Of a stretch of 64,000 bases of DNA, positions 6,649-12,600 are shown in pieces. The position numbers and the translations under genes are program-made. Under the pieces are notes generated by a model. The model did no database searches, had not been told where the DNA came from, and was given only the letters and a program-made list of their open reading frames with translations. The stretch's first letter is position 1; each line of letters starts with the position of its first letter. This stretch comes from Glandiceps talaboti (lineage: Eukaryota; Hemichordata; Enteropneusta; Spengelidae): contig NC_135556.1 in the NCBI RefSeq assembly GCF_964340395.1, positions 18,595,642-18,659,641 on the forward strand. Reading direction: 5' to 3'.

Positions 6649-9600
6649 TCAGCTATGCCACGACTGTGAGGGTTTTCTATCCGAATACTCCCATGTACAC
6701 TCTTTGCCTCTATCCTGTAATATGAAAATCATGCAATACACTCCATTGTTAATGCACTAATATCAGGGTTTGTAAATTTGTCAACAACAAAAAAGTCCAT
6801 GTGAGAGTGACATTGAACTAATGGATGCCCTTTTAGTAAAGTATTTTTGTTGACGAAGGTAGGGCCAAATATATGTGTTGTTTACCCCATAGTATAAGTC
6901 TAGTATAACGACAAAGACTGTGACTTTAAGGTTATGGCTTTAAGATTACTGGATAAGAAATATTAACTGTTCATTCCTGGCTTGGATAGTTTGACTCAGT
7001 ATCCTCCAGAAACACTAACGTTTCTCAGAATTCAATAAAAATCACAATTTCCATTTTGAAATAAATTCCACAGAAGTGAGTGCTTTCAGTTAATATTTGA
7101 TGTTTTTCCTAAACGATCGTAATGTAAGTGACTGCTGCATAAAAGGTCCATTAAGAAATATTTGATAGCTGAAATTGATGCGTACACGCCACCGAGTCTC
7201 TATGTTACATAATGCAATAAACTACGAGTATTATTCAACAATGAATAACTGCTGTCTCTTTCCATCTTCTTTTCATATTATAACAATTACATTCCCTTTG
7301 ACTTACTTTAATTTGAATACCAACAGTTGACAACTGGTCTCTTAACTCATCACAGTTAGTCAATAGAATTTCTCTCTCTTTTCTTTTCTCCTTCATGGCT
7401 GCTTTGTCTACAGTAGAAAAAAAGTATGCTGAGGGTTATACATTTTAGCATGCACGAGAACTAAGCAGGACATCACTTTATATGACATGATACAATACAA
7501 GAATGGACAAATAAAACTAGAAAATATAACGCTGTTCTATCGTTGTGATGTGCAGTCATTTGTGTGAATTTAAAACTGGACACAGATGTATATTGCTGAA
7601 TAGGGAACTCACAATCCAGACTGAGCATGCTCAGACACAACGACTGTGGGATTATCTGTAGTTACCATAATACCTCACCTGGGGCTATCAGTAAAATAAA
7701 CCTCCCAAAATGGTCAGGGTAACCATGACTAGATTATTTGAATGCGTTTACTGATAATGTAACACAATTGTTTACAATACTGACTGATTCATATTTGTCA
7801 CCATATTTCCCATGATGCAACATTCAGGTTTTCAAGATGGTGGATTTGCAAGTTCCCTTGTTGTTCTTCTAGTTCATTTGAATTCACTATCCAACACCAC
7901 TTCAAGAGTGTGAGGACTTACGCTATGTGAAGGGTTAAACCTGACAAATAAATGTCAGCTATTTTCAACTTTTTTGGTGCAAACAACATTGTATCTTAAC
8001 AAGTTTGCACTCAATGTACGTTACAAGAGTCTATCACTGGGATGTTTCCATAACAACATCTTTTGACTAATGCCATACATAGGTATATTTACTTCATAAC
8101 TAACATTATATTTCATCTTATTTCGTAAATCTGAAGAACTAGGATAAATTTGTTATTTAATGTCTTAACAAGTTCTAATGTAGACATCATCGAGCACAGA
8201 AGTGGATTACTGACCTGTTGGCTCTGTTTTATTTGCATTGGTGGTTGACTTCATCAGGGCAAAGTTTCTGACCTTTGACCTGAAATGTGTGACACTCTCC
8301 ATCACTTGTGACAGAGTGTATGAAGAATCATTACCAAGGGAACCCTGGGAAAATATATACAAAGTTACCATGGTTATAGTAGTCTAGATGATGTCATTAT
8401 ATATCAATTTAATGAGAAAACTTACAAAAATGAACATTTTGTGCTTTTTGTATACTGGAATGTGATTGCAAAAGACAACATATATACTACATACAAAATT
8501 TTGTAACAGTATATGCTGATATGCTATTCCTTGCAATCAGTCTTACCTGTTTTGTGATTACTTCTATCCCAAGTGATGTCAAAACTCTTTTGACGTACGT
8601 TGCTATGGCAGCCATGACATCAGGACTTCTGGCTGAGGTAGTCTGCAGAACACAAAAGATAAGGCAACAATACAGTATGACTTGCTCAAGTCTCATGGGT
8701 TGCTTTTGTTTTTTTAAACACAAGTGTGTTCTTCTGTGTGAAATGTCATCTCAGTAACAGTTCGGTAAACACCTATTAGCACATAGTATCCGAGAAAAAT
8801 TTAAAAAAATAAGGACATTTTCCTTTACAAAACTAAAAATAAAGAACACATTCAAAACATTTGAAGAATGTGAGACTTAAAAAAAATGTCCAGAGGGACT
8901 GGTACCAGTGTACAATACAATACATAAGACCTTTCTTGTCAAACAGAAAGAATAAGTTTGCAGGCAGTCAAACTTTAGGACAACTAAGAGACAATAGGTG
9001 GAGTATAGAACAATTGGGATGATTTATAGGATGTAGAATTGTTACAGTATCCAATAAATGATGGTGTTGTTACACTTATTGAACAATGCATTACATAAAA
9101 GACATTGTAACTAGACATGTGTACTCTATGAAGACAATGGGTAAAATACTTGTAGGGGGGGGGGGGACGACGACATGATTGATTTAGTGGTCATACTCAG
9201 TGGCATTCCATGATGTAAACTGTGTGATACATTTGACACACCTGTGGTTTAGTATTCAATTGTGTGTTACAAAGATGTACTAACTCCAGGACACTATGTT
9301 ACACTCACCTGTGGTTTAGTATTCAATTGTGTATTACAAAGATGTACTAACTCCAGGATACTAAGTTACACTCACCTGTGGTTTAGTATTCAATTGTGTG
9401 TTACAAAGGTGTACTAACTCCAGGACACTATGTTACACTCACCTGTGGTTTAGTATTCAATTGTGTATTACAAAGATGTACTAACTCCAGGATACTCACC
9501 TGTGGTTTAGTATTCAACTGTATATTACAAAGATGTACTAACTCCAGGATACTAAGATAACTCACCTGTGGTTTAGTATTCAACTGTATATTACAAAGAT

Positions 9601-12600
9601 GTACTAACTCCAGGATACTAAGATAACTCACCTGTGGTTTAGTATTCAACTGTATATTACAAAGATGTACTAACTCCAGGATACTAAGATAACTCACCTG
9701 TGGTTTAGTATTTAACTGTATATTACAAAGATGTACTAACTCCAGGATACTAAGATAACTCACCTGTGGTTTAGTATTCAACTGTATATTACAAAGATGT
9801 ACTAACTCCAGGATACTAAGATAACTCACCTGTGGTTTAGTATTCAACTGTATATTACAAAGATGTACTAATTCCAGAATACTATTCAATGCTTTTGTTG
9901 TGTTGAAATCATCAGCCAGACTTTGATATACACCGTGTCTGGTTTCACTGAGTCTGTCAACAAAATAATACAATTTTACAAATCTCTTCAAACACAATTG
10001 TGACTGACATGTTTTAATTAAAGTATGTATAATTACTAACAAAAATTTCTCCTCACAGAGTCAAAAAATGTCTTTGTAGCGAATCCCAACTTTGTGTCGA
10101 TCTTCCAAGAGATGTGACAACTGACAATAGCCCATTGCAATACACTCCTGGAGATGAAGACCAGACATTGGCAAAAATTTATGATTCACTTCCAAATTTC
10201 TTTAGATATTTTCATGGGTAAAACATATATATATATTTGTATCAAAAGTAGCGAGTTAGGACGAGGGATAGGAAAATGGTCACACTCTCAATCATAAATC
10301 TAGCTTTGCTCATTGAATAGCCACTGTTGTGTACATGTTCCTCATCAGTTTCCAAACAGGTACTGCAATGTTATTGAAAACAGTACAAAACCAAGATAAT
10401 GGGCTCTTTTGTTTTATGTGAAAAAAATGCTACAACCTATAACAGGCAAACATTACAAGCAAAACATATTATAAATGTAAAGTACACAACTGAATTGGAT
10501 TAGTAACACTTGGCACAACATGTTGGAACAATAAAGACATGTATGGTTTGATACTAGTAAGAACAGGTTTATGGCCTCTTTACATGCCAAGGAAACTTGA
10601 AATTCATTTGAGAATGTGGGCTATTGTGTAAGAGGCAATAAAACTTGTCTTATCAAATGATGGAATGTACTACATGACTCTGTACTTCAAACATGTTTTA
10701 CAAAGTCAGGGGGGTAAAAATATCTGTCACATGACGCATTCCAACATCAGAACAATGCAGTTCATTCAAATCTTGACAAGTGCAATGAATTAGTTTGTTT
10801 GTTTGTTTGTTTGTAACATGGTTCCTGGGCTGCCTGTGGGTATATGTGTACACATCTCTAAGTCTAAATTTGTCTGTCATGTTTTACAGCACGGTATATG
10901 TACAACTCAATGCATAGTTATACAGGCACTACTTCAAGTAGCACAAAGCGATTGGTGATGGAGTAGGAGCACAAGAATATGCCATAGCATTACACAAAGA
11001 AACGTCAATCAATAAAAATATCAAAATGTATTGAAGTACTCTCTACACATGAAGTATTTCAACATGAATACTCTTTCTGAAGATGAAGAATTTCGATTTG
11101 AAAGCTTTCCTTTACATGCAAACAAAAAATATGAAAAAATGAATACACCGTGAGGTCAGATAATTTGAATGTACAATAAAAGAATTTGAATCTTTCTTAC
11201 TTCTCTAAGAGCCTGGTGTCTTCAAGTGATTGACAGCTAAGTTGACCTTTGACATAATCATCAGCATTATTGAGAAATGAAGTGAGCGTGTGCAGAGTGT
11301 GGCTGGCTTGTTGTATGTTGTCATGGCTGTATTCAATATCTGTAATAATGAAGGAACATAAGTTTAGATAAAGCCGTGTTAGACAATTATTATTCAACTT
11401 GAGGTTTGACATTAAACTTCTTTTTCTTGCAATTTTCACATCAAATTCTATCATATATATGCTATTAAAAAAATCATATTGTGAAATAGTTGCATTTTCA
11501 TTTGAAAATGGCATTGTGTACACAGGGTCTTAGTGATAAAATTTTTAATTATATACCATATCTCTCCATGTTAATATAATATCCAGTATCATTTCACACA
11601 TCATAATTTCTAGTTTCAATTTAGCACGTGATTTCTAGTAATTTCCTGTTTGCAATGGTTCAACTTTAAGAGAATGACAAATATACTGTTCATGGTTCCA
11701 ATATCGGTAAATTGGTACTGAAGGCAATGTTTTGATCTGTCTACTACAAACCTTTCAGAGAGCTTTGATAAATATACTCTATAATAGTCGAATGTACTCT
11801 GACATCATTTACACCAATGTCAAATAATTAGTTTGATTGCAGAAATTGGAAACTACACAATTTGCAGCAAATTTCAAATTTTAGAAATAAATTTCTGTAG
11901 ACACATTAAAATAAAAGATCATGACTCCAGGGAGTTGTTTTCCTGTTGAAATACATTAAATATTTTTTTCATTGTGTATTATAAGTGTAACTGATTTTTA
12001 TTCATTGAGGTGGTGTTTTTGGTAAAGTTGGGGAACCCGGTAACAGAAAGAGAACAATATGCTGAAACAAAAACCATCTTGAAGGAGGGGGTAGATTGCT
12101 AAATTTACAGTAGCTCTGACAACAACCATGATTTTCCAGTGTGCATGCACAAATTCAACTAAAGCTACAATATCTTCTAAAATACACTGGTAATTAGTAA
12201 AGGATTTGTTGACAGAGATAAAGTTACCTTTCTGAAATCTGGTTTAAATTTCGTCTGAATCATTCAGACATCATCAGTGAAATGATGATGTCTGACAAAA
12301 GCTATGTAGTTGCTTCAAAACTAGATTGCAAAAAGGTAACTTTATATCTACTAACTATATCTAATGGAGTCCCGTATCATAATCTCTTTTTATTGAAGTT
12401 AAATGGCTTACAAAAGTTTTTCAGTATCTCCGTTTTGTCTGGTATCGCATATTTCCAATTATAGTTCACAAAGACCCTTGAAATACTAGTATTTGATTTT
12501 CACATCAAAATGATGATGACAGTTAGCTTTTCAAGAGTATATAGTTTAATGATTGTGTTTTACGATATGATTTACTACATCCTGTTTCATGTTGTGTCTT

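Follow-up and report, generated by a model that had tools for sequence, protein, structure and literature searches.

A probable mirage-type minisatellite with ten tandem 5' splice sites at CARS2 exon 9 of a probable hemichordate

Tandem repeats that run across exon-intron boundaries, known as mirage minisatellites, have been described in lancelets, where, in the sections of the two reports drawn on here, the arrays are reported to vary in length and to leave splicing undisturbed (PMC3087553, PMC3902484). As far as those sections go, many but not all repeats of the Adh3, BflGb6 and BflGb9 mirages carry the AG/GT signal, the real exon retains its own copy, and the Adh3 array is somatically unstable (PMC3087553). 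For lancelet PGBD5, tandem repeats of 60 and 108 bp at splice sites were argued not to hinder splicing, and the excerpts used report no aberrant mRNA for the Adh and TnC mirages (PMC3902484). Here, an array of this architecture is described in a 64-kb stretch of DNA from a probable acorn worm, hereafter the window, where ten tandem 5' splice sites (donors) follow exon 9 of a gene for a CARS2-like mitochondrial cysteinyl-tRNA synthetase. From its sequence, the array is read as a mirage-type minisatellite that would be a neutral passenger, with CARS2 being made via the first donor, and a probability of roughly 0.8 is given to this reading.

Anatomy of the CARS2 array

The gene occupies 6647..21977 on the minus strand. 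Joining its 13 exons by hand through the first donor of the array gives an intact protein of 590 amino acids (aa), in which both the catalytic tRNA-synt_1e domain and the DALR_2 domain are matched by Pfam, the latter by exons 9 and 10 with 30.8 bits. These domains fit CARS2, a class I cysteinyl-tRNA synthetase; a PDB search with exons 9 and 10 returned a cysteine--tRNA ligase as the sole match (E 0.23). Exon 9 (9953..9830, minus strand, 124 nt) terminates in CACAG/GTGAGT, and its expected partner is exon 10, which has a phase-0 acceptor and lies at 8547..8642 on the same strand according to the exon joining.

The repeat unit of 66 bp combines the last 54 nt of exon 9, which form unit 1, with 12 nt from the intron start. 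Unit dissection and Tandem Repeats Finder (TRF) confirm the ten tandem copies of exon end and donor that a sequence-only reading had proposed, in a minisatellite of 10 units and 10 donors at 9239..9884 (minus strand). TRF gives 66 bp with 5.9 copies, a 98% match and a score of 761 for 9494-9884, and longer-period rows with scores of 1055 and 1051 cover 9239-9884. All ten units end in CACAG/GT, and the first intron bases of the successive donors are 9829, 9763, 9697, 9631, 9565, 9499, 9442, 9375, 9308 and 9241, so that five spacings of 66 are followed by one of 57 and three of 67. Donors 1-9 read CAG/GTGAGT and donor 10 reads CAG/GTGTGT. Units 2-6 (9500..9829, minus strand) are five 66-bp segments, each with 12 nt of intron start and 54 nt of exon end, and are in frame, as is unit 7 (9443..9499, minus strand, 57 bp), the last open unit. 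Units 8-10 (9242..9442, minus strand) are three 67-bp segments that break the frame, the GTGTGT donor following unit 10. The 66-bp main period and the open frame of the proximal units, both part of the sequence-only reading, hold through donor 7 in the joined-exon translation: donors 2-7 yield 612, 634, 656, 678, 700 and 719 aa, and donors 8-10 lead to a stop after 593 aa. The first in-frame stop past donor 7 is a TAG at 9428..9430 on the minus strand, which bounds an open reading frame (ORF) at 9428-10060.

Since units 2-6 differ at just one site, recent turnover of the array is suggested, and length polymorphism is plausible. The near-identity of these units also leaves the exact copy number uncertain, which is what could be said for an assembly artefact. 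Such an origin is nevertheless very unlikely, given that the units vary in sequence and length in an ordered fashion, that the unit, when searched against the 590-Mb assembly, gave at least 10 matches, all within this array, and that further arrays share the architecture. The CACAG/GTGAGT of each unit could also be taken as an acceptor joined to a donor, with intron gain or recursive splicing removing 66-nt segments stepwise. This is very unlikely, as a pyrimidine tract before CACAG was not seen by eye in the CARS2 units.

Donor-spanning arrays in the window and the genome

Copies of this kind are found at other exon ends. Gene models built by hand in the window supplied 28 donors for testing (12 of CARS2, 3 of a short-chain dehydrogenase and 13 of a nonribosomal peptide synthetase (NRPS)-like reductase, the donor of an ING-family gene being outside the set), and donor-spanning downstream copies were detected at four of them, namely 9830, 55647, 46365 and 43994, with scores of 55, 50, 24 and 36. 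The best random score was at most 13 with 30 random places per donor, null values of 55 being taken as self-overlap of the query. At 43994, the scored match covers the exon side only, and a donor copy follows in the sequence after a 2-nt gap. These three further cases are on the minus strand: an exon-end array of the AMP-binding (NRPS-like) gene with four donors spaced 51, 53 and 53 (55487..55690; TRF, Pfam), two copies of a PP-binding exon end and donor (46248..46440; donors 46364 and 46248, 116 bp apart), and two copies of a NAD_binding_4 exon end and donor (43891..44040; donors 43993 and 43891, 102 bp apart). On the acceptor side, 2 of 29 window acceptors have a short upstream copy, downstream scores being disregarded as self-matches. 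Both are exon-start copies in the NRPS-like gene, one at 55891-55980 that spans the junction (score 15) and one at 46514-46600 that covers the exon side only (score 21).

Genome-wide, pairs of the donor motif CAGGTRAGT with a gap of 30-60 nt number 1210, against 455 for the reversed motif, and single copies number 12,243 against 8,590, so that the pair ratio is 2.66 and the single-copy ratio 1.43. The places listed on contigs C1 and C2 up to 31.9 Mb include 19 donor-motif loci and 6 control loci (Fisher p 0.036, with motif totals estimated). This over-representation of the donor motif in arrays is no more than suggestive, because large arrays weigh heavily in the pair counts and the replicate with a second donor motif, AAGGTAAGT, is weaker. 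A single array at C2:7468355-7469099 bears donor-like AAGGTAAGT motifs on both strands.

For closer inspection, 19 array loci were used, 18 from the donor-motif loci and one from the single-motif listing. By reading, 13 of them begin at an exon end, while L009, L024 and L044 are doubtful; at L033, L034 and L039 an exon end at the array start was looked for by reading and none was seen. Homology was obtained for 6 of the 11 adjoining exons tested (UBA3, a C1 domain, aquarius (AQR), PACS, KNTC1 and IARS). The exon of L030 matches cytoplasmic IARS after a blank Pfam search; Pfam likewise gave no match for the exons of L026, L041, L047, L017 and L048, and PDB none for those of L026 and L041. The intronic part of the unit is short in several arrays (about 6-20 nt), and in the few cases concerned the repeat often stops just past the donor consensus.

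A sample chosen regardless of repeats was drawn from kinase genes. The initial 30 kinase loci were mostly a single ORF across the whole domain and therefore unusable for splice sites, so 60 partial matches were hand-picked and the ends of 30 examined. Donor-spanning copies are present at 3 of these 30 exon ends (L123, L124 and L134), some of which may be gene ends without a donor, and the doubtful L131 is uncounted. Roughly 1 in 10 of the exon ends checked in this probable acorn-worm genome carries donor-spanning copies. The most likely reason for this frequency is that the extra copies would hide harmlessly in the intron.

Alternatively, tandem duplication in this lineage may start preferentially at 5' splice sites, in which case the arrays would reflect a local mutational process in addition to tolerance. 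The higher ratio for donor-motif pairs than for single copies and the locus contrast given above point in this direction. So does an exon score that exceeds the 90th percentile, as set by 1,137 random GTs, at 12 of 18 array donors and at 13 of 40 single-motif donors (p 0.016), but the two groups lie closer together at the 95th percentile (6 of 18 and 11 of 40) and at the 98th (3 of 18 and 6 of 40). The 18 array donors correspond to the 19 donor-motif loci minus C2:2198k and L033, where the array fills the locus, plus L048. The score is crude, and its result of 13/13 for known exons is not independent, as its codon table was derived from the CARS2 exons, which are among those 13. Moreover, the raw pairs of AAGGTAAGT number merely 849 against 642 for its control, and more minisatellites may simply sit in gene-rich regions. 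A donor hot spot is regarded as a tentative proposal, and as it is compatible with a passenger array, the odds of the two overlap.

The acceptor-like motif TTTTTCAGG behaves differently, with 24 pairs against 61 for the reversed control despite 8,983 copies against 4,769. When the pair counts are normalized to copy number and to each motif's reversed control, pairing is enriched about 1.9-fold for the donor motif and depleted about 5-fold for the acceptor motif. Such an asymmetry would be expected if the first-transcribed signal wins, which is the true site in a donor array and the wrong one in an acceptor array. A broader generalization is possible but less likely than not: the 5' splice sites of this hemichordate lineage would themselves seed tandem amplification, about one in ten donors would carry a mirage, acceptors would be largely spared, and the genome would amount to a natural experiment with many genes that have several near-identical donors in series, all arrays obeying a first-transcribed-donor rule.

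Reading frame, conservation and the passenger reading

As a neutral passenger, the CARS2 array would go back to a tandem duplication, produced by slippage during replication or by unequal exchange, which included the exon-intron junction by chance and then expanded. Exon definition would pair the exon-proximal donor, as the first to be transcribed, with the upstream acceptor, and the extra donors would remain within intron 9 and be spliced out. The intronic copies would evolve neutrally, with turnover in length, and the open frame of 22 codons would be a one-in-three coincidence of a 66-bp period in a mostly coding-derived unit.

The principal competing explanation is that the array generates splice isoforms, with donors 2-7 appreciably used and 1-6 copies of a 22-residue repeat (19 residues in unit 7) inserted into the DALR domain. 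The sequence-only reading had advanced such insertions in multiples of 22 residues, and for donors 2-7 its arithmetic stands, since these donors keep the full-length frame. If the copies were translated, array periods should tend toward multiples of three. Among 12 arrays next to exons confirmed by homology, 4 have a first donor-to-donor distance divisible by three, which is the chance rate, and with six exon-like loci added, the period is divisible by three in 5 of 18. This count omits L029, which is a copy of L026, and L009, L024 and L123, which have irregular units. Divisibility by three is thus not the rule that would be anticipated for a tandem-repeat isoform generator, although CARS2 units 2-7, considered by themselves, do conform to it. 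In 8 of the 12 confirmed arrays, including those at the UBA3, AQR, IARS, C1-domain and KNTC1 exons, the second donor would shift the frame, and in the array at 43994, one of the four divisible cases, an immediate stop is encountered at the ORF end. Because divisibility occurs only at the chance rate, the open 22-codon frame of CARS2 is probably a coincidence, as judged from the sequences compared.

Conservation and domain structure were also considered. In the intronic copies, exon-derived columns are no more conserved than intron-derived ones, with lower conservation in 4 of the 7 comparable arrays among the 13 entered (Wilcoxon p 0.44). The DALR_2 alignment crosses the junction of exons 9 and 10 only when no copy is inserted; with one or two copies, it ends at residue 38-39. 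Together with the absent frame bias, the stop reached from donors 8-10 and the normal splicing reported for like lancelet cases in the sections consulted (PMC3087553, PMC3902484), this interruption makes the insertion of 22-residue repeats an unlikely outcome.

Several observations nevertheless weigh against a purely passive array, and some of them favor the use of downstream donors. Of the eight variable sites counted by eye in the CARS2 units, six occupy third codon positions (binomial p 0.02). Translation of the copies would be consistent with such an excess, but two of the six distinguish the exonic unit from the remaining units. With inserted copies, DALR_2 remains detectable at a barely lower score of 29.8 bits. 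As donors 1-9 share an identical motif, the first has no motif advantage, and among duplicated donors the intron-proximal copy can be favored. In the genome-wide counts, the excess for the second donor motif is weaker, large arrays inflate the numbers of pairs, and motif composition explains part of the donor/acceptor asymmetry, because the control of the acceptor motif itself is also low. An interpretation of the array as a private adaptation of CARS2 was rejected, as unrelated genes show like arrays.

Host lineage and comparison with known systems

In the window, CARS2 (minus strand, from 21977) stands head to head with an ING-family gene on the plus strand (about 22500-24077; Pfam ING). As human CARS2 and ING1 are also neighbors, this linkage may be ancient. 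A long reverse-transcriptase-like ORF of a non-LTR (long terminal repeat) retrotransposon with an RVT_1 match is found at 28072-30213 on the minus strand, another, judged by eye, at 59900-61570 on the plus strand, and at 63724-64000 a 106-bp satellite-like array (TRF) continues past the window end.

The host lineage was assessed with a mitochondrial contig found via COX1, with the order ND2-N-W-A-..-Y-COX1-S-..-COX2-..-ATP6, in which ND2, COX2 and ATP6 were recognized by eye and the tRNAs called separately. Its 1,181 codons include no AAA, AGA or AGG and 13 AAG, and ATA occupies several sites at which isoleucine is presumably expected. According to Table 3 of PMC3121625, in the parts of that paper used, AUA encodes Ile and AGA Ser in Balanoglossus, where AAA and AGG are missing; AAA encodes Lys in Saccoglossus and Asn in echinoderms; and in cephalochordates AUA encodes Met and AAA Lys. 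In the background text of the same paper, unlike in its table, the codons given as missing are AAA and AAG, and the AAG count found here agrees with the table and not with that sentence. Echinoderm mitochondrial gene orders are very different in the portion of PMC2697986 drawn on. The mitochondrial code of the host is therefore most likely that of a Balanoglossus-type hemichordate (acorn worm), judging from codon content. A lancelet host was rejected, given the missing AAA and AGG and the ATA at isoleucine sites. The GFP family, used as a lancelet marker, gave no match, and neither did the controls of that search, so the blank result carries no weight. The mitochondrial contig C40 contains COX1 three times (L089-L091) at 15,435-bp intervals and is probably a concatemer of the mitochondrial circle from the assembly.

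A search of the open-licence literature found no report of mirage minisatellites outside lancelets. The present arrays would extend them to a probable hemichordate, in which they are suggested to be common. They also place between two and dozens of near-identical donors in one gene, mostly at distances of about 40-116 nt and in several instances in housekeeping genes, so that ordinary RNA-seq could address how the spliceosome selects one of several equal 5' splice sites. Donor-spanning arrays are, in addition, raw material from which exons and introns could newly form.

Compared with the systems for which partial accounts were available, the CARS2 array resembles the tandem duplication of AG/GT segments, including fission-yeast cases with several 24-bp copies, in that a segment with AG/GT is duplicated. 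It differs in that its segment spans a pre-existing donor, so that a new intron is unnecessary. The PGBD5 and TnC duplications of lancelets concern single genes with few copies in another phylum. The CARS2 array matches the lancelet mirages in that the unit crosses the exon-intron boundary and the extra copies carry AG/GT signals, in CARS2 without exception. The differences lie in the host, which is most likely a hemichordate and not a lancelet, and in the side affected, as the lancelet mirages include acceptor-side cases (BflGb6), whereas in the present window donor copies are longer and clearer than acceptor copies. The acorn-worm arrays thus seem to belong to a known but little-known kind, apparently in a new phylum and apparently common there.

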